DNA of 20,409 nucleotides from a virus, in IMG/VR virus record IMGVR_UViG_3300034994_000063, positions 1 through 20,409 of that record; one strand, 5' to 3'. The first letter of the stretch is position 1, and each line of letters begins with the position of its first letter. A program made the translations under genes and the position numbers. Shown here piece by piece: positions 1 to 19,548 of the stretch. The notes below the pieces were generated by a model. It had not been told where the DNA came from and did not search any database. It saw only the letters and a program-made list of their open reading frames with translations.

Positions 1-301
1 GGCCACGGTTCTCCCCACCTACTTCCCGTGGGTGCTCATCCAGGTGTTGCCGTGCATAGGCGGCCATAAGATCCCCAAACGACCCCACGCTTGTTATTAC
101 GGCTTTAGCCCTGCGGAGCGGAGCGGCCAAAGCCGCCGAGGTCTTGTCGTCAACAACCCCAGTTGCAGGTAACCCGATTTTTAACTGAAACTGTTTTATA
201 GCAAAGGCCGTGGCTGGGCCAAAGTCCCCGTCCAGCACGACCTTAAAACCATTGAGAGCCAGCCACTCTTGAGTCTCTCTTGTACCGGCATCAATCTTCA
301 T
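1..301 (-). CDS. Endolysin, N-terminal part (peptidoglycan-binding domain), runs off left edge
   Basis: This is the first 100 codons of a gene whose 3' end lies outside the window. Residues 8-58 match a PG_binding_1 domain: T10, Q11, W13 and L14, then the turn DGDFG (24-28), T31, AIKQFQ (34-39), GLPATG (43-48), VDDKTSAAL (50-58). Residues about 92-99 read EVGGENRG, which resembles the start of CHAP/amidase-type peptidase domains in phage lysins (family knowledge, tentative). The likely role is peptidoglycan cleavage at lysis. A strong Shine-Dalgarno GAGGGGG lies at 306-312, four bases before the ATG (299-301). It sits 77 bp downstream of the tailspike stop, the usual place for a lysis gene after tail fibres. 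The catalytic domain cannot be seen. Confidence 0.85.
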   Translation of the reverse strand, partial: MKIDAGTRETQEWLALNGFKVVLDGDFGPATAFAIKQFQLKIGLPATGVVDDKTSAALAAPLRRAKAVITSVGSFGDLMAAYARQHLDEHPREVGGENRG

Positions 302-378: not shown

Positions 379-2091
379 TTATAGCTTGATCATCGACCAT
401 TCCACAGAGTTGGGGATGCCGGATGTTTGCGTAAATTGAACATCCAGGCCGGATAAGGTAATGGCTATATTTAGGCCGTTGGCATAATTCAGGAGCATAG
501 CGTTTATACCGTCGTTAAATACTATCGCAGAAGCAACAAAAGTAGGCCCGCCACCAGTCATGTGCACGGTTACTAAGTAAGTTCCCTCTGTAGAAGTAAA
601 CGCCGTGAATGGCACCCCGCTTGTTGGAGAACCCAGAGAACCACCCCGAGAAATGGACTTGCCGTCTTTTATAATTACAATATTATTACTTGCCCTGATA
701 TTGTCCGCGAGTTCGATCATTGGACCCGCTGTATAACCCGTGGTGGCTGTCTGCTGCTTGTTATTGATGCCAACATAATTTAACGCGGGGGCCGCACCAC
801 CTACTCCGGCAGTATCGAAAGTACAATCTTGGACTGTGATATTAGTTTTAGCCCCCACGACTATATGAGATGTCCCAGCCGCAAGCGACCCGAAAAAACT
901 CGACTTAACAGATATATGGTTGCCACCTGACCCATACCTGCCCACCGCGTCTATGGACCCGTACCCACCGTTGTTTTCGAAATAACTATCTGAGACAGAT
1001 ATATAATTTGCGGTAGATTCGCCTCCATGGACTATGCCTCCCTCCGTGCAACCTTGTATTACAGACTTGTTAGTAATAGAAATATCTCCGCCGTTCACGT
1101 AAATACCAGTACCCGTTTGATCTTGGATAAGTATGTGGTCGAGCAAAAGGGCGTTTGACTGCACCAAAGCATCGCCAGGGACAGTTATACTGGAAAAAAC
1201 GGAAGCTGAATTATTGTCACTAAAATTGCAATCCCTGAGTGTCATGCCCTCACCAGAAAAATGGTAGATAAGCGCATCCGTGGCGGTAACTAGCCGAATA
1301 TGAAAGTTTTCTAAAAGAGCATAGTAACCGTGATACAACACTTTTACTACGCTAGTCGGGTGAAGTGCCTCGGCCCCATAAACAACGGCATCTTTTAAAA
1401 TAACCCTGTCAGACGCCCCCACTACATGATAAGGATCTGCGGTAGATTGTTGACGGATAGTAAACATTACACCAGTCGTATTCGGGATGATTTTTGATCT
1501 GTTAAAATCAAACGTAATAGCTTCAGTGATATCATCCAAAGCCCCAATGAGGTAGGTCCCCGTTTTAAAGTGGATAACAGCTGCGCTGGCGTAGGGGTGT
1601 GGCGCAGGCGCGTATCTTGCCAGAACCCCCGCCGTTACCGCTGCAATGGCCTTATTAACGGCGGCAGTGTCAGCATCAGTCACCCCATCGCCTTTGGCTC
1701 CATGCCAGTGAGCTCTTGTTTCAAGAAGGGACACACTACCATCTCCCCCAAAAATTTGATAATCACCTGCAACGATTGAACCGGTTGGGGTAAAAATCTT
1801 TCCCGCGTTGACATTTATCATGCCACCATCGGTAACCGAGATTGTCCGGTTTGTGGTTGTATTGTTGATGCTCATGGGCTTGGAAACTACAACAGTTTTG
1901 CCCGCAGTGGAAGGGGATGCAAGTGCTGTGGAAAGGTTTTTAAAGCCTCCCGCATCTATACCCCAAGGGCCAGTGGTATTAGTTGGTGCGGCCAGAGACG
2001 GTAGTGCCGTAACGAATAAGAACAACAGCGCAAAAAAACTTTTTCCAATCATCATGTCTCTGGCTAAAAATAGCGAAGCAATCTTTTTCAT
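379..2091 (-). CDS. Tailspike, pectate-lyase-fold beta-helix, with N-terminal signal peptide
   Basis: This 570-aa protein is a probable receptor-binding or polysaccharide-degrading tailspike. Residues 128-139 read HWHGAKGDGVTD, the hallmark entry to the pectate-lyase-like right-handed beta-helix of phage spikes. Residues about 140-480 are rich in the short N, G, I and V strand-turn pattern of such helices, and the last 70 residues look like a beta-sandwich trimerisation end. I chose the ATG at 2089-2091 because AAAGGGG lies five bases upstream (2097-2103) and it follows the fibre stop by 10 nt. A longer reading from 2208 would overlap the fibre by 107 nt. The N-terminus has basic residues and then a hydrophobic run (residues 18-33) ending in SLAA before PTN, a Sec signal peptide. 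That is unusual for a virion protein. No catalytic residues were assigned. Confidence 0.85.
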   Translation of the reverse strand: MKKIASLFLARDMMIGKSFFALLFLFVTALPSLAAPTNTTGPWGIDAGGFKNLSTALASPSTAGKTVVVSKPMSINNTTTNRTISVTDGGMINVNAGKIFTPTGSIVAGDYQIFGGDGSVSLLETRAHWHGAKGDGVTDADTAAVNKAIAAVTAGVLARYAPAPHPYASAAVIHFKTGTYLIGALDDITEAITFDFNRSKIIPNTTGVMFTIRQQSTADPYHVVGASDRVILKDAVVYGAEALHPTSVVKVLYHGYYALLENFHIRLVTATDALIYHFSGEGMTLRDCNFSDNNSASVFSSITVPGDALVQSNALLLDHILIQDQTGTGIYVNGGDISITNKSVIQGCTEGGIVHGGESTANYISVSDSYFENNGGYGSIDAVGRYGSGGNHISVKSSFFGSLAAGTSHIVVGAKTNITVQDCTFDTAGVGGAAPALNYVGINNKQQTATTGYTAGPMIELADNIRASNNIVIIKDGKSISRGGSLGSPTSGVPFTAFTSTEGTYLVTVHMTGGGPTFVASAIVFNDGINAMLLNYANGLNIAITLSGLDVQFTQTSGIPNSVEWSMIKL

Positions 2092-2096
2092 AAATT

Positions 2097-2103
2097 CCCC
2101 TTT
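2097..2103 (-). promoter_or_regulatory. Ribosome binding site that fixes the tailspike start
   Basis: The minus strand reads AAAGGGG, then five bases, then the ATG at 2091. It overlaps the stop codon of the upstream fibre gene (2102-2104). This site supports the 570-aa start, and with it the signal peptide at the true N-terminus, over the longer reading from 2208. Confidence 0.75.
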
Positions 2104-3487
2104 AATCGATTTTAAGTGATGTTGCCACCCAGGCGCCACTTGGACATGGGCCTGCATTGCCCCTACCGAGCAGTCCCGCATTTGTACCACCGTTGCAGTA
2201 ATAAACAATATTTGTACCGTTGACGGAAAGAGTCCCTACAATTTGCATCTTGTTCCCATTATCTGTCAAGGTCCCCACCAGCACATTACTTCCTTCTGGT
2301 TGTAATACATAGGGTTTGTAAGCCGTCACGTTGCCGTTATACACTTGTAATTGTGCATACGTTGCTGCGGCATGGGTATAACAACGGCTTCCCGCTGAAG
2401 TCAAGTCAACTGTTGTCACCCCCAAATCAGTCATACCTGTCAAGGGACCCTGCACCTCTAACTTTGAACCAATTAACGGGGTAGAACCACCGATTATAAT
2501 ATTGCCCGAGGTACCCGCAAAATAACCGCCTGTAACGGAAGTGATGCCTGCAGTCGCGTTCAATGTCGAGGCACTAAATGCCTGGGAAGCACTACCTGCC
2601 AGCAAAGCCCGTGCGGTACTATCAACAGCGTTAATGGTGATTGGGGTAGTGCCATCGAAATTGACGCCATTAATTGCCCTGGCGGTTGTAAATTTGGCCG
2701 CGCTGCCTGTGGTGTTTTGGTTGAGATCCGGGAAACCGGTAAGTGCGGCCGCGCTGCCTGACGGAGCAAGATAGTCGGACCCTGCAACAGCAATGCTAGG
2801 CGCTCCTGTACCGGAGGTGTTTTTGAGGAGGCCGGTAGAGAGGCCCGCCAGAGATGTGCCGTTAATGCCGCTGACAGTCAGTGCCGTAGAACCGGTAGCA
2901 TCTCCGGTGTGAGTGGCATTTGACACCAGACCGCTATAGAGGGAATTAGCGGCATCATCTCCAGTGTTGCTACCGCTCAAGGTGGTGATGCCGAGCGCGG
3001 ACTTGATCGTGGTAGCGGTCTCGGCGGGCGCGGCGGCCAGAGCATCTATAGCAAAAGTACCGAGGCTCTTGTCGCCACGCAAATATTGAGCAGCAATGCC
3101 CCCGGAGATGAGCGGTTCTTTGGTGGTGTCAACTATTGTGATATTAGCTGTGCCGTCGAAGGGCACGCCATTAATATTCCGGGGCGTAGTCAACCTGGCC
3201 GCGCTTAATGCTGTACCGGGTATTGCAGGCCAAGCGCCCCCCATCCAAAGCGGTGCGCCAGCCTCTTCAGTGATCTTGCGAAGCGACGACTCATTGGCGA
3301 AGGTCCACTTAACTTTTTCAGCATCGGTAACTGTACGGGCGCTGGTATATGTCTTGAACAACGTGATTGGGTCGCCTTCGGAAACGACCCTTTTACCGTT
3401 GGCTGTGAACCCTTGGACGATACCCGCGAGAGCGAACAGGCTGACGCCAGCAATTATGATGATTGAAAATGTGCCGCCATATTTCAT
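2102..3487 (-). CDS. Tail fibre protein with N-terminal signal peptide or membrane segment
   Basis: This 461-aa protein has the composition of a phage tail fibre: rich in G, A, S, T and N. Two copies of a fibre repeat occur at residues 97-118 and 264-285, sharing INGV-x-FDGT and ITI. Residues 171-205 carry the SGSNTGDDA...THTGD...TALTV pattern common in fibre shafts. Residues 6-25 are strongly hydrophobic (FSIIIIAGVSLFALAGIV) after MKYGG, a signal peptide or membrane anchor. The C-terminus has C431 and C448 with W453, a cysteine-bracketed module that resembles the ends of PilV/shufflon-type adhesins (tentative). The start ATG (3485-3487) has a poly-G Shine-Dalgarno. The gene follows the fibre adaptor and precedes the tailspike. 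It probably forms the distal fibre, but no obvious baseplate-binding N-domain is visible. Confidence 0.8.
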   Translation of the reverse strand: MKYGGTFSIIIIAGVSLFALAGIVQGFTANGKRVVSEGDPITLFKTYTSARTVTDAEKVKWTFANESSLRKITEEAGAPLWMGGAWPAIPGTALSAARLTTPRNINGVPFDGTANITIVDTTKEPLISGGIAAQYLRGDKSLGTFAIDALAAAPAETATTIKSALGITTLSGSNTGDDAANSLYSGLVSNATHTGDATGSTALTVSGINGTSLAGLSTGLLKNTSGTGAPSIAVAGSDYLAPSGSAAALTGFPDLNQNTTGSAAKFTTARAINGVNFDGTTPITINAVDSTARALLAGSASQAFSASTLNATAGITSVTGGYFAGTSGNIIIGGSTPLIGSKLEVQGPLTGMTDLGVTTVDLTSAGSRCYTHAAATYAQLQVYNGNVTAYKPYVLQPEGSNVLVGTLTDNGNKMQIVGTLSVNGTNIVYYCNGGTNAGLLGRGNAGPCPSGAWVATSLKID

Positions 3488-8582: not shown

Positions 8583-9326
8583 TTATGCCCCTGTCTCAAT
8601 TACCCCAACCGAGAGGCCGGTGATGACTACCGCTCCGGGCGCCACGATTGTCAGTCCTCCGGTTGCGGCAATGGATGAAGTTGTTAATGCCCCACCTACT
8701 ATCACATTCTCACTCGCTATCAGATTGCCGTTTAACTGTATATCCCCGTTCACGGTAGTCAGCGGGCTCGTTAGAGTAGTATTGCCATCCACTGAAATAT
8801 TGGCATCTCCCATAATCTGTACGTTCAAGGTTTCTTGAACGACCACGTTACCGGTGCCGGCAATAGTAAGGGTTTCGTTGCCCTTGACATAGACGGTCCG
8901 GTTGCCGTCCTTGTCTATTGTTTCAGAGGTGCCATTGCGCTTCTTATGGTTGCGGGGGGCCTCTGCCATGGTCGCCGTCATGTTTTGCTGCCGGGGTGTT
9001 ATAAACCCGGTCACTATGGGAATATTCTTGTTGCCAGCAATGAACTGGACAATGGCTATATTGCCCTCTTTTGGGGTCCACTCTTCACCCTCGTCCGCAT
9101 TGATATATGGATAGGCTAAGGGGACTTTATAGACCGCTGGATATCCATCCAGGAGCATTATATCAACAACAGTTTCCCCGCTGTTATTGGCCTCGTCGTC
9201 TTTGAGATAAACGGTTTTGATGATGCCGCGCAACGGGAACGTGTAACTGTAGATCCCTTTTGCGGATGGGTGCTGCTCCATCATCGCCTGGGGGATAGCC
9301 CCCTCTGTGTTGTCTCTGCTTCTCAT
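8583..9326 (-). CDS. Baseplate central spike, gpV-like (OB fold plus beta-helical stalk)
   Basis: This 247-aa protein overlaps the hub gene by ATGA. Residues about 30-112 form the OB-fold region (GIIKTVYLKDDE, WTPKEGNIAIVQFIAGNKNIPIVTGFI) seen in P2 gpV and T4 gp5. Residues about 133-240 are a repetitive beta-stalk: KDGNRTVYVKGN, LTIAGTGNVVV, INGDIQLNG-type steps. Trimers of such proteins form the membrane-piercing needle under the tube. The HxH iron-binding tip motif of P2 gpV is not evident, and the C-terminus VITGLSVGVIETGA looks plain. A separate PAAR-type tip protein is not seen. Confidence 0.85.
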   Translation of the reverse strand: MRSRDNTEGAIPQAMMEQHPSAKGIYSYTFPLRGIIKTVYLKDDEANNSGETVVDIMLLDGYPAVYKVPLAYPYINADEGEEWTPKEGNIAIVQFIAGNKNIPIVTGFITPRQQNMTATMAEAPRNHKKRNGTSETIDKDGNRTVYVKGNETLTIAGTGNVVVQETLNVQIMGDANISVDGNTTLTSPLTTVNGDIQLNGNLIASENVIVGGALTTSSIAATGGLTIVAPGAVVITGLSVGVIETGA

Positions 9327-10567
9327 GACGGATGCACTTGTCCGCGAGTCACGGCCAGGGTTGTGAGAAATTGGGGAACATCCCCGAAGGTTATCTGGTG
9401 GTCCACTTGCTCAACAAGATATTCTCTCTTGGTAAACTTTTCCAGCACGGCGCTACCTGCCCGAATATGGGGATTCAGGTGAAGGGCAAAGGACCCCGAC
9501 CACAAAAGATGATTGTTTCTCAGCCTGTTCCAAAACGCAGTAGATCTTTTGGCAAGCTCCTGGACAAAACCGGCGCTGGCCACGGTGTCGCCCTCTTTGA
9601 CCAGCTTGGAAAAATTGGTTCTGCTAATTTCTCCGTTGAAGCCATTACGAGCGACAGACATATCATCTGAATTGACTATCCCATCGAGCACCATGAAGAT
9701 GGGGATCTTTTCGTCTACACCCTCAATAGTGAGGTTTGCCTGCAGCCAGAAGTAATTCACCCGTTCGTCATCACAAGCCCCAACGTCGGCCCGGACAATT
9801 GTGGCGGTTTCGAGGGTGATGAAAGTATCATGCCACAAATAGCCGTCATCACGAATCGGGTTCTTTTCCAGTATCACTGCAAATTTCAGTCGGGCAGGAT
9901 CTGGGTCAGTTTCGGTGGTAAGGATATTCCAGGGGTGATTAGAGTTTTGCACCATAGCCGACCATGCTGCCCCGGTCTGGTAAAAAACTGCCGTGTTGAA
10001 GGTTTCCCAGTCGTCGTCAGTACGGGGGGAATATTCAAAATAAGGGGCCATCTCCGTTACGTCGTCAAGAAAGAGGGCCTTGAAAATACCCCCCACTATG
10101 TCGTTGGCGGTCCCGGTAAAGCGGAGATCCTTCGACATCCGCTGAATCATCGGATTCCCTTCGTTGCCCTCTTTCAAGGTGATACTCCAGCCGCAGTCGT
10201 GGCGGAGCAAGAGTTTACCGAAGTCAAGGCCGGCAAGCTTTACACTGCGTTGTGGTCTACCTTCCGCGTCTTGTGACCACACCTGTCCTATCCTGGAAAC
10301 GAGCCCCAGCATGACAAGGACGCTCCCTCTGCCATCACCGCCATCCATTTCGATAGTGACGATATCATTGGCCCGGACTATTTCATCATACCGCAAGCCG
10401 TATTTCTTGATGGTCCGAAATGGCAAAGTCAAATGCCAGGCACCAGCTGCCCGGCCGTAAGCTTTGCTGGTGGCAACCGTGACGAGATCCACAGAGATGT
10501 CGAGCCATTCGCCTTTGTATTCCGAGAGCTGGATTCTCACTTTAACTTTAGGAGTATAACTGTTCAT
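9323..10567 (-). CDS. Baseplate hub protein, gp27/gpD-like
   Basis: This 414-aa protein starts inside the tape-measure stop (ATGA, 10564-10567) and ends by the same overlap into the spike gene. The C-terminal part (about residues 365-411) has the classic hub pattern: LNPHIRAGSAVLE, then YLVEQVDHQITFG, then LTTLAVTRGQ. The N-terminal third (WLDISVDLVTVATSKAYG, AGAWHLTLPF) fits the first tube-like barrel of gpD/gp27 proteins. Trimers join the tail tube to the spike. Its position directly after the tape measure and before gpV matches this role. Confidence 0.85.
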   Translation of the reverse strand: MNSYTPKVKVRIQLSEYKGEWLDISVDLVTVATSKAYGRAAGAWHLTLPFRTIKKYGLRYDEIVRANDIVTIEMDGGDGRGSVLVMLGLVSRIGQVWSQDAEGRPQRSVKLAGLDFGKLLLRHDCGWSITLKEGNEGNPMIQRMSKDLRFTGTANDIVGGIFKALFLDDVTEMAPYFEYSPRTDDDWETFNTAVFYQTGAAWSAMVQNSNHPWNILTTETDPDPARLKFAVILEKNPIRDDGYLWHDTFITLETATIVRADVGACDDERVNYFWLQANLTIEGVDEKIPIFMVLDGIVNSDDMSVARNGFNGEISRTNFSKLVKEGDTVASAGFVQELAKRSTAFWNRLRNNHLLWSGSFALHLNPHIRAGSAVLEKFTKREYLVEQVDHQITFGDVPQFLTTLAVTRGQVHPS

Positions 10568-12513
10568 CTATTCGGCACCCGGACAGGTAGCGGGGTCCTC
10601 GCTGGGGTCAATGAAGGCAGCGCAAGGATCTTGACGACAACCTCTTCCAGTTTTCTGAAACTGGCAGTCTGCCCGCCGAAATCTCCAGCGAAAAGATCAT
10701 GCACGCCTTGCCGGAGCTTCTGTCTGTTTTCTTCCCTTTTGTCGGTATTGTAACTCAGTACCTTATCCGTATGTTTTGCGGTTGCGGTGTCCCACCATTC
10801 CCTGATTGATTCGGTGGCAATTTTAAAACCCTTGCCGTCCTTCACTCCCAGAAGATTTTCGAGCCCTTTAACCGTGCTTTCCATTTGTTTCACTACAAGT
10901 TCACCGCCGCCTAGTACCGCAGTACGAAGGCCCTGAAGCGGTGGGCCAAGCACCTTACCGGCGCCGTACAGGCTCCCCTCTTGTTCGGCCAGCTCACCAC
11001 GGACAGCACTCGGTTTGTAGTTTGCGAATACTTTGGCGATGTTGGCGTCTTTGCCACCCTTCGCCTTCCATTGTTTAATGAAATCGTCGTTGCTTGCTCC
11101 TCCATATTCCCCGAGCATGTCCAACATTAAGTCAGCTTCGTTGCCTTTGCCCGGTGCAAGGTCATACATGGCATTTAGCGCCATACGGGCCTTGGCCGGG
11201 TCCATGCCTTTCAAATACCCAGCCATCCCTTTACGGTATTGTTCGTTGCCCAACCCCTGTTTTTGTGCGGTCTTTATTTTTTCTATAGATTCGAACGAAC
11301 CATTAAATTCATCGCCGCCCGCCAGTTTCCATGACAAGAGCTGTTCACCAGGGGATCTCCCCCCAGCCGCCATGCCCGAATTTAATTTGTCGTAGGCCCC
11401 GGTAGCCTGGAGCATAACGCTTTTGTCGAAGCCGCCCGTGAACATCGCGGACAGAAAGGCGGCCTGGCCAGCAGATACTGCTCCGCCCTGTTGGGTCATC
11501 TGTTTCTGCTGCAACTGGAGAATACCGGTGAGCACGTCGGTTTGCCGCAAGCCGTTCTTGGTGTTGGCAAAGATCCACGCAGTCATCCCCTGAATTGTCT
11601 GCTTATCGATACCCGTGGATCTGTAGGAGCCAGTCATGAACCCCCCTACGTCCCCTACGTCCATACTCCGGCCCCGAGCCAGCCGCATGGCATCATCGCC
11701 AGCGCCGGCAACATCCCGCCATCCACCCCCCGCTGCAAGCTGCCGGGAAAGGGCAATGCGTTCCCCGAGCATGTAGCCATGAGAGCCATACCCGGAAGGG
11801 CGTAGCCTCAGCGTGGACATATCTGCTTGTGCCGGCTCCAATTCCCTATATTTGGAAACGGCTTCCGCAATCAGGGCGACAACTCCCCCTATCCCGGCAA
11901 GCCCGAGAGTAGTCAGAGCCATCCGCTTCATGCCGCTCGCCGCAGAGGCGCCGGCATTTCGGCCAGAGTCTACCTGGTAGCCTTCAATCGCGGCACCGTG
12001 CTCTTCTGCCCGCTTACGCAACATTTCGCCACGGGCATCAAGTTTGCCCCGGTTCTTTAGTTCGGCATCGACTTCTGCTTTACGGGCCTCCAGGGAATTC
12101 ATTTCCGTAAGGATCGAGCCCCTCGTTTTGGCACTAAGAGCTGGGTCGTGCGAAGCTTTGCTCAACCCGTCGAGATCGTCTTTGATATGGCGCAGCTCAC
12201 CACGGAGGTCCTTGGTATGCTTCAGCCAACCACCAAGATTTTCCCCTACCCTCTTTGAAAGGTTGGCCGCATCCAGCCATTGCTTTTGATCGAGAGATCC
12301 GCCCCTGGCTTCACCCGACCGGGCGATACTCCCCAATCGGGTGACATCCAGGGACGCCTGGCGCAGCATCTCCACATCACGGGCGAGACTTTCTCCGCCG
12401 AGATCAATACTGGATTGATCAAAAGAAGACATCTGTTGTGACAGGTCAGCGACTGCTTTTCTAGCTGTGTTTATTTGGGAGGTATTTACCCGGAGGTCAA
12501 TAGCTGTGCTCAT
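10564..12513 (-). CDS. Tape measure protein
   Basis: This 649-aa protein sits between the tail-assembly chaperone and the hub, the usual tape-measure position. Residues 10-180 are charged and helix or coiled-coil-like (KAVADLSQQM, ELRHIKDDLDGLSK, EARKAEVDAELKNRG). Residues 198-219 are a hydrophobic segment (MALTTLGLAGIGGVVALIAEAV), as in many tape measures. The rest is rich in G, A, M and Q. It spans the tube lumen and sets tail length. At the accepted rule of about 0.15 nm per residue the tail would be near 95-100 nm (inference). No lysozyme or peptidase motif was recognised. The start overlaps the chaperone stop by ATGA. Confidence 0.85.
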   Translation of the reverse strand: MSTAIDLRVNTSQINTARKAVADLSQQMSSFDQSSIDLGGESLARDVEMLRQASLDVTRLGSIARSGEARGGSLDQKQWLDAANLSKRVGENLGGWLKHTKDLRGELRHIKDDLDGLSKASHDPALSAKTRGSILTEMNSLEARKAEVDAELKNRGKLDARGEMLRKRAEEHGAAIEGYQVDSGRNAGASAASGMKRMALTTLGLAGIGGVVALIAEAVSKYRELEPAQADMSTLRLRPSGYGSHGYMLGERIALSRQLAAGGGWRDVAGAGDDAMRLARGRSMDVGDVGGFMTGSYRSTGIDKQTIQGMTAWIFANTKNGLRQTDVLTGILQLQQKQMTQQGGAVSAGQAAFLSAMFTGGFDKSVMLQATGAYDKLNSGMAAGGRSPGEQLLSWKLAGGDEFNGSFESIEKIKTAQKQGLGNEQYRKGMAGYLKGMDPAKARMALNAMYDLAPGKGNEADLMLDMLGEYGGASNDDFIKQWKAKGGKDANIAKVFANYKPSAVRGELAEQEGSLYGAGKVLGPPLQGLRTAVLGGGELVVKQMESTVKGLENLLGVKDGKGFKIATESIREWWDTATAKHTDKVLSYNTDKREENRQKLRQGVHDLFAGDFGGQTASFRKLEEVVVKILALPSLTPARTPLPVRVPNR

Positions 12514-13218
12514 TTTTCACCCGGCTCCAGCGTCTTGAATTCTTCGTTAGGAAACATGGCCGCAAAGTCTACGGCCTGACCGTTGGCGATCTTAGCGTTC
12601 ATGGCATCCATTTCGGCATCGCCAGTCAGCTCCAAACCCTCCCCGCCACAGTAAGGGCATTCTTTCCGGAAGGTCTCTTTATTGCAAGTAAGACAGAGCC
12701 GCCTTGCTTCCCCGGCATGGCACAGCATCGCTTCGTATTCGATTATCATCTCTTCGAGCGTGGTGGCCAAGTACCGTGGATCGTGGAGCGGAAGTTTATA
12801 GTGTTGCCGGTACCAGAAACCGATTGAATCAGCTTCCTTCTGCGCCAGCCCCGCTATTGTTGCCGGATCGAAAGGAAGTGAGGAAACCGCTCACCTCTTT
12901 ATTAACCTCGGCAAGAGCTTTCATATCGGTTTCATCATCAAGAAAGATCGTAGTACGGTTGAACCATGTTGGTGTTTTTTCGGTAGCGATTTGAGATACG
13001 GTATTGAATATGCGTGAGACCTGGTTATGCAGAGGCGGCATCTGGGCCTCATCGACCAGGCCAAAAGAATTACGTTCTGCGGCTATCCGGCATTCAATCA
13101 TGGTCTCGTCAAGGAAAGCGGGCCGACGTATGTGAAAATTCCCGGAATACTTGGCGCCGAATGGTTGCTGGGTGAGTGGATTGACTTTGCTTTCGATGGA
13201 GAATGAGTGCGGTGACAT
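12510..13218 (-). CDS. Tail assembly chaperone, long form made by +1 (or -2) frameshift
   Basis: The zero frame (ATG 13216-13218) ends at 12829. A second frame, open from 12890 to the TGA at 12510-12512, codes for a conserved-looking stretch: DPATIAGLAQKEADSIGFW, then YRQHYKLPLHDPRYL and TTLEEMIIEYEAML. This resembles the second half of gpG-GT-type chaperones. That frame has no ATG or GTG start before this stretch, so it is best reached by a shift out of the zero frame. A shift at TTT CGA (12868-12873) or at the GGGG (12849-12852) gives 235 residues either way. The extension carries C175, C178, C187 and C190 (CxxC-x8-CxxC), a zinc-ribbon-like cluster. These proteins coat the tape measure during tail assembly. 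A sequencing indel would give the same picture. Confidence 0.75.
12829..13218 (-). CDS. Tail assembly chaperone, short form (gpG analogue)
   Basis: This 129-aa zero-frame product lies between the tail tube and the tape measure, exactly where gpG-like chaperones are encoded. It begins MSPHSFSIESKVNPLTQQPF and has a mixed alpha/beta body up to about residue 112. The last 13 residues (RSGNNSGAGAEGS) are low-complexity, as expected if the functional alternative is to shift frame just before them. The start is well supported by AGGAGG about seven bases upstream of the ATG at 13216-13218. Confidence 0.75.
   Translation of the reverse strand: MSPHSFSIESKVNPLTQQPFGAKYSGNFHIRRPAFLDETMIECRIAAERNSFGLVDEAQMPPLHNQVSRIFNTVSQIATEKTPTWFNRTTIFLDDETDMKALAEVNKEVSGFLTSFRSGNNSGAGAEGS
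12868..12873 (-). promoter_or_regulatory. Candidate +1 frameshift site in the chaperone gene
   Basis: The zero frame reads TCC TTT CGA TCC. With UUU in the P site, slipping one base forward gives UUC, which pairs with the same tRNA-Phe, while the A-site codon CGA is often read slowly. After the slip the frame continues GAT CCG GCA into the conserved extension. A second possibility is AGC GGG GCT at 12849-12852, where GGG can slip +1 onto GGG. Which site is used cannot be decided from sequence alone. Confidence 0.5.
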
Positions 13219-13240
13219 AGAAACCTCCTGGTAGGATTAA

Positions 13241-13262
13241 GGGGGAGCCGGCAGGCCCCCCC
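13241..13262 (-). terminator. GC-rich hairpin between tail tube and chaperone genes
   Basis: In the 53-nt gap after the tube stop, GGC with its partner GCC closes a TGCC loop on the minus strand. After one mismatch, five more G-C pairs follow (13241-13245 with 13258-13262). It is not followed by a long T-run (the minus strand continues TTAATCC), so it may act as a partial terminator or as a 3' stabiliser of the tube message. Confidence 0.5.
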
Positions 13263-13271
13263 CTCTGCTGA

Positions 13272-13670
13272 TTAAAGTTTATCCAGTGCGATGAAGGTCG
13301 CGTCCTGGCCGCTGATAGCGAACTTCGGGTAGTTCCGGTTGTAGGTATTGCACTTACAGCCGATGTAGTGTTCCATGGTCTGGTTGGTGACGTTATCCTG
13401 AACTTCGATATCAATGCCCACCGAGGTCATGATGGTTTCGGGGGTATCGACAATCCCGAGATCATCCAGCCGCTGTTTCGGCACATAAAAGGAAGACAGG
13501 TTAATCGTGAAGTTGATTTCCCCCGGCACCAGTTCCTGCGCTTTCCCGGAGCCCACCCCATCGACCCGCTGCAGACCGTAACTGTCCTGGAAACTGACAT
13601 TCTGGACTCCGTAGCCGATATACTGCCCTTTATATTTCAGTCGTACTCTATTGCCAGTCATTGCACCCAC
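13272..13670 (-). CDS. Tail tube protein
   Basis: This 132-aa protein directly follows the sheath gene, the standard sheath-tube pair of contractile tails. It is predicted mostly beta (VRLKYKGQYIGYGVQNVSF, GEINFTINLSSFY, IDIEVQDNV, FAISGQDATFIAL), fitting the tube beta-barrel whose hexameric rings form the DNA channel. The start is taken as GTG at 13668-13670 because GAAAGGGGG ends eight bases upstream. An ATG three codons in (13659-13661) would lie 17 bases from that site. A hairpin follows the stop, and the chaperone gene comes next. Confidence 0.8.
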   Translation of the reverse strand: MGAMTGNRVRLKYKGQYIGYGVQNVSFQDSYGLQRVDGVGSGKAQELVPGEINFTINLSSFYVPKQRLDDLGIVDTPETIMTSVGIDIEVQDNVTNQTMEHYIGCKCNTYNRNYPKFAISGQDATFIALDKL

Positions 13671-13678
13671 GGCACATA

Positions 13679-13686
13679 CCCCCTTT
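13679..13686 (-). promoter_or_regulatory. Ribosome binding site that fixes the GTG start of the tail tube gene
   Basis: The minus strand reads AAAGGGGG, eight bases before GTG at 13670 and 17 before the in-frame ATG at 13661. The spacing favours GTG. Confidence 0.6.
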
Positions 13687-13701
13687 CGTTATTCGTTATT
13701 T

Positions 13702-15429
13702 TTACAGACCTACCGAGAAAACCTGCTCCAGCGGTTCGACATGGTACGTGCTGAAGATCCAGTTGACCGGGTAGATAGGAACGGCAGCATAGTCCACGTA
13801 CCGGATCATCCCGTCAGCCCGCAGCACGGTTTTCTTCGGGTCGAAACTTCTGATGTAGCCTTCCCGCAGCGCCATTTGGAGAACCGAGTTGGTCAGGCTG
13901 ATGATACTCAGGTCCAGACCCTCCGTGCCCGGAGATCCTTTCAAACGGTCGTGCCGCTGGCGGATCTGGGCGGCGACATAGAAGGTCCCACGTCTCACGG
14001 AAAATTCAATGCGGGTAAGATCGTCGTTCTGGTTCCATGTAGTAACCTGGCGAGAGATCTGGTAACCGGCGCCCTGCACTGTATCGGGAATTGGGACTGC
14101 AACACCGGCCTCTACAAGATCCCCTGCTTCTTGTTCGGTGAGTTCAACTTCCAGGCCGAGGCAGCGGAGGTACTTGGCTGTCAATGGAAGGACCGGGGAC
14201 CCGCCAGCAGCGATACCGGCATACATTGCCGCCGTGATATAGGCAGGGTACAGCTTACTCTTGCCGTTTGGATCGTACTGGTAGTTACCGAGACCGGCAT
14301 GCAGGGTCAGGTCGGAATTGAGTACCTTTGCAGCGGCCTTGAGGGTCGCAATAGCTGTGGCCCTTGCATTGACACTACCCCAAGCCTGGAGTTCCCCGCC
14401 AACGAAAACCTGCCGCTCGTTCTTGGCTCCCAGCATGTAGTCAGCATGGCTATCGGCCATGGCGTGAATTGAGGCATCGCCTGACAAGACCAGGATGAAA
14501 TCACCTTTTACTGCTTTGAGGTTGTCAAAAGCAGCCTGCCAGTCGTTGTTGGTAGTGACTCCGTTTGTACCGCCAGCCAGGTATGTCCAGTCGAAGTTCG
14601 CCGGCACCCCGGTAGCGTCTACGATCCGTTCGGCAAGAGCGTAGCCAGACCGGGCGTTAATCCCGTCGATTATTGCCTGGAGATCCGACTTGACTGTATA
14701 CGCAGCAGCTTTAATAGCCTGCCCGACAACTGCATCGAGATCCATCGTGGAGTCACCTGGCTTATCGGCCATGATGATAGCCGTGTATTTGCCGGTGGCG
14801 TTGATTGCATCCGTCAGGGACTGGATGGTCGTGTAAACGTTCAGGTCCAGGGCCAAGTTGTCCACGTCGCCCGTGTTGGCTGTAGACAGAAGATGAGTCG
14901 CAGCTGACACGTCGATTGTCAACAGAGATGCAGCAGCGGCTCCTGTGTACTGGAGTGAAAAGGAACTCTTCGTCAGGTTGTCGAATACCTCGGTACTGCC
15001 GGCGTAATCGATAGAGACTTTTTTGCCAGTGGTCCCGGCTTCCTGCTTGGCCTTCACCTGATTGGCTGGTAGCCCGAAGAGATAACCGGTCAGTTTGTAA
15101 GCGGTAAACGTCTTGGTTGCGGGAGTACAGGGATTGACCGGGATAACCCGGACGTCTGAAGCTCCCTGTATTTCACTTCCTGGCGCCGGGTCGAACACGA
15201 GCTGGAGAGCCAGCCTTGCCTCTTCCGAGAAAGGGTGGAGGTAACGCAGCGCCAGAGCCGGGTCGTTAATCGGGGTAGGGATTCCGGGTGGTAGGAGACC
15301 AATCATCTCCCCCAGAACAAACAACCGATTGTTCCCCCCCAGCGGGGTCTTGGCCAGGGCCGACGAGTCTATTCTCGACCGCGCCCCCGGCAGTACATCA
15401 TATCTTCCATTCCAAAGAACTCCCTTCAT
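13702..15429 (-). CDS. Contractile tail sheath protein
   Basis: This 575-aa protein is the tail sheath, whose contraction drives the tube into the host. Residues 274-335 hold a conserved sheath core: FDWTYLAGGTNG, NDWQAAFDNLKAVKGDFILV, then SIHAMADSHADYM. This is followed by a Rossmann-like region. The C-terminal domain (about residues 478-568) has FSVRRGTFYVAAQIRQRHD, LREGYIRSFD and VPIYPVNWIFSTYHVEPL, the part that interlocks sheath subunits around the tube. Residues 130-260 are a probable surface-exposed inserted domain. The ATG overlaps the stop of the 83-aa gene (ATGA) and has AAGGAGG at 15440-15446. The tail tube gene follows after 31 nt. Confidence 0.93.
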   Translation of the reverse strand: MKGVLWNGRYDVLPGARSRIDSSALAKTPLGGNNRLFVLGEMIGLLPPGIPTPINDPALALRYLHPFSEEARLALQLVFDPAPGSEIQGASDVRVIPVNPCTPATKTFTAYKLTGYLFGLPANQVKAKQEAGTTGKKVSIDYAGSTEVFDNLTKSSFSLQYTGAAAASLLTIDVSAATHLLSTANTGDVDNLALDLNVYTTIQSLTDAINATGKYTAIIMADKPGDSTMDLDAVVGQAIKAAAYTVKSDLQAIIDGINARSGYALAERIVDATGVPANFDWTYLAGGTNGVTTNNDWQAAFDNLKAVKGDFILVLSGDASIHAMADSHADYMLGAKNERQVFVGGELQAWGSVNARATAIATLKAAAKVLNSDLTLHAGLGNYQYDPNGKSKLYPAYITAAMYAGIAAGGSPVLPLTAKYLRCLGLEVELTEQEAGDLVEAGVAVPIPDTVQGAGYQISRQVTTWNQNDDLTRIEFSVRRGTFYVAAQIRQRHDRLKGSPGTEGLDLSIISLTNSVLQMALREGYIRSFDPKKTVLRADGMIRYVDYAAVPIYPVNWIFSTYHVEPLEQVFSVGL

Positions 15430-19110: not shown

Positions 19111-19548
19111 CTACTGTTTGTAAATGACGACTTGAGGACGGGCCGCGTATGAAGTAGAAGCACAGCCATAGACCGCTATCCGTTTGGTATTAAGGCCCGG
19201 ATGCCACGGACCCACCCCGGAAGTCGGAAATTTACCGGTCGCAGAAGTGCCATAGACTGAACTGTACCCGCCGAATTTGGCGCTGCAGGCCACCGCCGTA
19301 TTGTCACTCAGTTTGACAATAGATATCTGATACTTGGTGAGCTTGTCCACAGCGATATTGGTGTAACCACCTTTGGTCCCCAGGTCAATCACGGTAACTG
19401 AACTGGGAGCGAAGTCCGTCCCGAAAAGGGCCGCCCCGCCGAATTGTCCGAACGTGGGGAAACCGTCTCCCGCACCCGGAAAAGCAAATGCCCCCGTTGC
19501 CATTGCCAACAGCAGAACTACCCCGCACAGAAAACTTAACTTTTTCAT
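19111..19548 (-). CDS. Secreted 145-aa protein with signal peptide, unknown function
   Basis: The product starts MKKLSFLCGVVLLLAMATG and has a clear Sec signal peptide with likely cleavage after AFA (residues 20-22). The mature part (about 123 residues) is rich in G, S, T, V and Y and probably beta. It carries two cysteines (C88 and C129) that could pair in an oxidising compartment. I recognise no family. The gene lies inside the head-to-neck block, where capsid decoration or head-completion proteins are normal and exported proteins are not. AAGGAGG lies 10 bases before the ATG (19546-19548), which overlaps the stop of the 51-aa gene. It could be a moron product displayed on or secreted from the cell, or a virion protein with an unusual route. 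Confidence 0.8.
   Translation of the reverse strand: MKKLSFLCGVVLLLAMATGAFAFPGAGDGFPTFGQFGGAALFGTDFAPSSVTVIDLGTKGGYTNIAVDKLTKYQISIVKLSDNTAVACSAKFGGYSSVYGTSATGKFPTSGVGPWHPGLNTKRIAVYGCASTSYAARPQVVIYKQ

Follow-up and report, generated by a model that had tools for sequence, protein, structure and literature searches.

Predicted Sec-type export signals at the N-termini of tail-fibre and tailspike proteins in a contractile-tail phage and in divergent relatives

Introduction

The tail fibres of tailed phages are normally assembled in the cytoplasm, and their N-terminus is the end by which they attach. In the stretch of viral DNA analysed here (a 20,409-base IMG/VR record, hereafter the window), two adjacent genes for a tail-fibre-type and a spike-type protein appear to begin with export signals, raising the question of whether their products are virion parts that leave the cytoplasm before they are fitted, fibre-derived proteins that serve in the host envelope, or proteins whose starts have been misread. 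We know of no tailed phage that builds its fibres through export. Beyond what a first-pass annotation of this DNA had reported, we find that the window holds a third signal-bearing gene (19111-19548) and that divergent relatives have the same property.

Results

All signal-bearing candidates of the window lie on the minus strand (Table 1). Read along that strand from the head side, the genes are p199, the 145-aa protein, the head-to-tail adaptor homologue and connector genes, followed by the sheath, a tape-measure-like gene, the hub, baseplate J, a baseplate wedge-like protein and the fibre adaptor, and finally by the fibre, the spike and the start of a peptidoglycan-binding-like gene, which is the arrangement of a contractile-tail phage. 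Among named phages the window has distant relatives only: Bordetella phage PHB04, Pseudomonas phages Touem01 and Dolphis and Aeromonas phage ST4 have syntenic myovirus tails with ~30-37% identity in the sheath or baseplate J, and the fibre-region genes checked in them lack signals, unlike those of the window. The first-pass annotation had entertained a device derived from a phage tail in place of an ordinary phage, an idea that finds no support given the head-to-tail adaptor homologue, sheath, tape-measure-like gene, hub and baseplate J, ordered as in myovirus relatives of 80-95 kb; an extracellular contractile injection system or tailocin was likewise rejected, given the head-to-tail adaptor homologue and the synteny with complete myoviruses. 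The fibre gene follows the adaptor gene after 25 nt and the spike gene follows the fibre gene after 10 nt, and there is therefore little room for a separate promoter before either of them. A pattern scan for the promoters and terminators that would mark a separately expressed moron gave few matches, near the expectation from shuffled sequence.

Elsewhere in the tail module, comparison of window positions 9323-15429 with the related stretch L007 revealed a sheath that is 92% identical, next to tail genes whose identity falls to ~28-31%, and a tape-measure match (67%) that is confined to the first 230 residues. This drop suggests a recombination boundary inside the tape-measure gene.

Table 1. 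Positions of the window features considered here; signal peptides are predictions.
Feature	Position	Strand	Remarks
Start of peptidoglycan-binding/lysis-like gene, cut by the window end	1..301	-	No signal; assigned by sequence pattern only
Spike-type protein, 570 aa	379..2091	-	10 nt past the fibre gene; N-terminal domain 37% identical to the G011 spike (residues 51-155)
Spike residues 1-35, predicted Sec signal peptide	1987..2091	-	Score 8.6; ALPSLA/A end; ribosome site AAGG
Tail-fibre-type protein, 461 aa	2102..3487	-	25 nt past the adaptor gene; residues 77-132 match tail-fibre PHROGs
Fibre residues 1-26, predicted to be a signal peptide or signal anchor	3410..3487	-	Uncharged core, KD 2.9; score 4.2
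Baseplate-to-fibre adaptor, 304 aa	3513..4427	-	No signal; 46% identity to the G011 adaptor over ~250 aa
Head-to-tail adaptor homologue, 445 aa	17770..19107	-	Placed by analogy with the annotation of Aeromonas phage ST4
Exported-type 145-aa protein	19111..19548	-	Immediately precedes the head-to-tail adaptor gene; G011 and G012 have homologues
Residues 1-22 of the 145-aa protein, predicted Sec signal peptide	19483..19548	-	Score 10.1; AFA/F end; ribosome site AAGGAGGT

The fibre and spike N-termini do resemble export signals, as first proposed, each having a basic residue and an uncharged hydrophobic core, at about residues 6-26 of the fibre (MKYGGTFSIIIIAGVSLFALAGIVQGFTANG) and residues 18-33 of the spike (MKKIASLFLARDMMIGKSFFALLFLFVTALPSLAAP), the latter with the cleavage-like end ALPSLA/A. 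In the fibre the core is strong and the cleavage site, possibly after A21 or G26, is moderate by its von Heijne-type score. Scores were taken from a small home-made von Heijne matrix based on 22 signal peptides of E. coli, and all signal calls rest on this matrix, a heuristic and the analysis of start sites. On this scale the 145-aa protein ranks first, followed by the spike and then the fibre (Table 1), and the other confidently called proteins of the window score 2.4 or less and have no strong hydrophobic core. The predicted export signal of the spike is clear: the spike and the 145-aa protein plainly have the features of a Sec type I signal, and the fibre has them with its moderate cleavage site. 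The same combination of features occurs at 0.07-0.27% of 1485 internal-methionine starts. No such N-terminus was seen in the 32 fibre and tail proteins of named phages that we checked, where 12-residue hydropathy reaches at most 1.38.

The start codons of all three proteins are very probably correct, judging from their ribosome sites. When in-frame starts were listed with these sites, the spike (ATG 2091, with the Shine-Dalgarno-like AAGG 7 nt upstream) and the 145-aa protein had good ones, and a G-rich run, an imperfect Shine-Dalgarno-like site, was present upstream of the fibre ATG at 3487. The sole other in-frame start of the fibre within 50 codons is a TTG at codon 43. The open frame of the spike reaches back as far as 2208, within the end of the fibre gene, but ATG 2091 has the better ribosome site. 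Mis-called starts were thus rejected, as Shine-Dalgarno-like sites are present, if imperfectly for the fibre, and no later start is well supported.

We also considered cysteines as a marker of compartment in the exported-type proteins, which contain 10 pairs spaced 8-20 residues apart where 3.9 are expected (P 0.003; controls P 0.13). This excess was noted post hoc, stems mostly from one protein and is suggestive only as a disulfide-like compartment marker; overall cysteine content was not informative and was dropped as a marker.

According to the first-pass annotation, the property begins sharply at the fibre. The adaptor upstream indeed lacks a signal, as had been stated, but the property recurs at the far end of the window, beside the head-to-tail adaptor gene. 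Because the homologue of that adaptor adjoins it, the 145-aa gene belongs to the head-tail module. Among 25 records searched its homologues were found in G011 and G012 only, where they are 141 and 119 aa long, occupy the same place and both have predicted signals; all three proteins have a DFAP...LGTK motif, and BLASTP between the window protein and its G011 homologue gave 1e-8 (the E-values of the family profile are inflated, since it was built from the same three sequences). Other relatives have a short signal-less gene at this place. In the annotated Aeromonas phage ST4 the corresponding genes are flanked by those for the major capsid protein and the head-to-tail adaptor, and one of them is annotated as a putative head fibre. 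As a weaker case than the fibre and the spike, the 145-aa protein might belong to the outside of the head and be exported in the same way.

Searches for known domains and relatives gave mostly negative results. Neither Pfam nor PHROG searches found a virion-attachment family at the fibre N-terminus, where the segment is signal-like, although an attachment domain might lie behind this segment; PF03406 (Phage_fiber_2) had no match in the window, and the S74 domain was absent from the window fibre in the Pfam search. Pfam matched no YadA-type C-terminal membrane anchor, as trimeric autotransporter adhesins have, in the fibre or spike, and no known outer-membrane anchor domain in any of the proteins scanned. 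The spike may form a beta-helix by analogy with its G011 homologue (PF13229). Structure models were poor (mean pLDDT 38 for the spike and 53 for the 145-aa protein), Foldseek found no match to these models at E <= 0.001, and we claim no fold. No direct relative of the window fibre was found in the viral contigs or genome contigs searched, and none of the spike in the viral contigs, its divergent G011 homologue apart. A PDB sequence search had no match for the fibre or spike, a sheath-profile scan of the genome contigs none either, and plasmid searches and further searches of named phages returned nothing useful.

Signals recur in relatives with different fibres. After its adaptor, G011 (95 kb) encodes a 720-aa spike, a 297-aa signal-less protein, a 1394-aa fibre, a 198-aa glycine-rich protein and a GH108 endolysin. 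The spike is homologous to that of the window (37% over the first domain) and has a predicted signal, MRQLIYIALLSIMLAAC/G, that is a lipobox (LAAC); the 1394-aa fibre (MKRYLFLLILFLTAAVAIA/ADI, a good cleavage-type end) and the glycine-rich protein (MLARLLIILLLLPSLCWA/GPS) have predicted signals as well. Nearly all of this 95-kb record was listed and no other large fibre-like gene stood out, so that the candidate receptor-binding proteins of G011, except for the adaptor and the 297-aa protein, carry predicted signals. The endolysin-like protein of G011 (L034:6176-6802, minus strand; GH108 and PG_binding_3) has a predicted signal peptide at its start.

One signal-bearing fibre of 1251 aa is common to G016 and G019; its start overlaps the end of a 327-aa protein homologous to the 297-aa protein of G011. 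A signal-less proximal protein therefore directly abuts or overlaps the exported-type long fibre in G011 and G016, and in L046 the homologous proximal domain lies within one signal-less 719-aa protein. Members of a signal-less proximal fibre family that starts with REINNAGQPL... (L043:15582-16475, L047:15180-16163 and L046:6295-8454) stand directly before exported-type fibres in two phages and form part of a long protein in a third.

Scanning with a fibre-repeat motif common to the G011 and G016 fibres yielded four distinct fibres, a small and non-random sample in which all four have predicted signals; new among them were fibres of 1688 aa in G017, whose head/tail genes form a different set, and of 1838 aa in G018. 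Phage_fiber_2 repeats are present in the G011, G016, G017 and G018 fibres, and PF03406 exceeded its curated cut-off in 5 of the 15 records searched, each time in a signal-bearing fibre (the G016 and G019 fibres are identical, as are the pair from G017). The first-pass annotation had proposed that homologues starting after the hydrophobic segment would speak against export; the starts in the signal-bearing relatives include that segment, none lies after it, and this attempt at refutation failed. Signal-less proteins occupy the fibre place in G005, G008, G009 and others. As the sheath tree places G016, with its signal-bearing fibre, as sister to G009, which has none (support 99/100), the signals move with fibre modules and not with the tail backbone.

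Two further observations were made in the collection. Close to the tape-measure gene of relatives, small exported-type open reading frames run against the direction of the tail genes (L023:6827-7186, L008:15681-16418 and L098:9664-10065), and when read with table 11 the tail-fibre genes of the crAss-like phage cr125_1 (L092) contain internal stops, as would fit a recoded stop.

Discussion

We tentatively favour, at somewhat less than an even chance, the reading in which fibre and spike are receptor-binding virion proteins that leave the cytoplasm through Sec and meet the tails at lysis or later. They would be made as Sec precursors, cross the inner membrane late in infection, lose the signal by cleavage or retain it as an anchor, fold and trimerise in the periplasm, and attach to the cytoplasmically built tails once the envelope breaks at lysis. 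If the signals work, both proteins would be kept apart from the cytoplasmic tails until the membrane breaks; in vitro, steps of T4 tail assembly can go to completion in mixed lysates (PMC3004832, PMC9576892), which makes attachment at lysis or later feasible.

Several features argue for such virion proteins: the fibre-type content (tail-fibre PHROGs in the window fibre, PF03406 in relatives), the operon spacing and the position behind the baseplate genes of the tail module, where relatives have their fibres, the start-site support at fibre and spike, the lack of another large fibre-like gene in G011, the signal-less proximal protein next to the exported-type long fibre in G011 and G016, the lack of a known outer-membrane anchor domain in the proteins scanned, and the recurrence of predicted signals across different fibre sequences and phage types. 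The excess of closely spaced cysteine pairs points the same way, though it is suggestive only. Other features argue against them: the LAAC lipobox of the G011 spike suggests lipid anchoring rather than a free virion part, the cleavage site of the window fibre is only moderate, several close relatives use signal-less fibres and, as the window is part of a genome, a second fibre set could be encoded elsewhere. The papers we searched, a set that leaves out most subscription journals, describe no tailed phage with Sec-exported virion fibres.

Nearly as likely, the fibre and spike are fibre-derived proteins outside the virion, exported to the host envelope or released, which would mask receptors, digest exopolysaccharide to aid release or change adhesion, the virion itself using the adaptor or fibres encoded elsewhere. 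The Sec-type N-termini would suit this role, as would the lipoprotein-type signal of the G011 spike, the small exported-type family of the 145-aa protein in the same phages and the place of the exported-type G017 fibre between an endolysin-like gene and head/tail genes, and cellular tail-fibre-like proteins with signals are known (Bdellovibrio MAT, PMC10769870; WceF, PMC7949094). However, such a role would leave G011 without an obvious long fibre, the window fibre has no space ahead of it for a promoter of its own, and crossing of the outer membrane goes unexplained by any Pfam translocator or anchor in the scanned proteins.

Less probable is an uncleaved hydrophobic N-terminus that anchors the fibre in the inner membrane during membrane-assisted assembly, or that is buried in the baseplate. 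The score of the window fibre (4.2) would agree with this, as would the low cleavage scores that accompany strong cores in G017 (2.8) and in the 198-aa protein of G011 (1.9), but the spike, the 145-aa protein and the 1394-aa fibre of G011 have good cleavage-type ends (8.6-10.1), and from one phage to the next the sequence of the segment is entirely different, in contrast to a baseplate-binding domain. Least probable, and largely refuted, is an artefact of wrong starts, chance hydrophobicity or an unused relic signal from a captured host gene, to which the home-made predictor, the lack of close homologues of the window fibre in the collections searched and the identity of the G016/G019 and G017 pairs lend some weight, but which is opposed by ribosome sites at the called starts with few or no later starts that have one, by the low chance rate and by recurrence in divergent phages.

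In comparison with known systems, the preferred virion fibres and spikes resemble Phage_fiber_2 (PF03406) tail fibres and beta-helix tailspikes in the shaft repeats of signal-bearing relatives, in the tail-fibre PHROGs of the window fibre and in their place after the baseplate genes, and differ from them by the N-terminal export signal, absent from the named-phage proteins checked. The Lom and Bor proteins of lambda are exported envelope morons encoded near tail genes and are not tail fibres; the window genes, in contrast, lie 10-25 nt apart inside the tail operon and do not look like separate units. The Bdellovibrio MAT proteins are phage-fibre-like, bear a signal peptide and are displayed on the predator surface, their superfamily having a conserved ~130-aa beta-rich domain after the signal and, in one subfamily, an S74 domain (PMC10769870), which Pfam did not find in the window fibre; moreover, MAT is encoded by the bacterium, whereas the genes described here lie in phage tail operons. 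WceF of Pantoea is reported to be an exported enzyme of tailspike fold (PMC7949094) and thus also combines likeness to a tailspike with an export signal, but its signal is of the Tat type and it belongs to a host exopolysaccharide cluster and is non-phage. Phage endolysins such as Lys44 of fOg44 are exported via Sec before lysis (PMC6116005), a precedent for a late phage protein passing through Sec, although Lys44 acts on the cell wall and is no fibre.

Taken further, there may be a class of tailed phages that finish their virions outside the cytoplasm, with Sec-secreted fibres, spikes and perhaps an outer head protein that mature in the periplasm and are fitted at lysis, a proposal that we regard as rather doubtful at present. 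Recurrent Sec signals on the fibres and spikes of divergent phages would mean either a two-compartment assembly that is finished at lysis or a widespread second use of fibre genes in the host envelope. Either reading would bear on the annotation and testing of receptor-binding proteins, and a signal peptide is no reason to set a fibre candidate aside as a bacterial adhesin.
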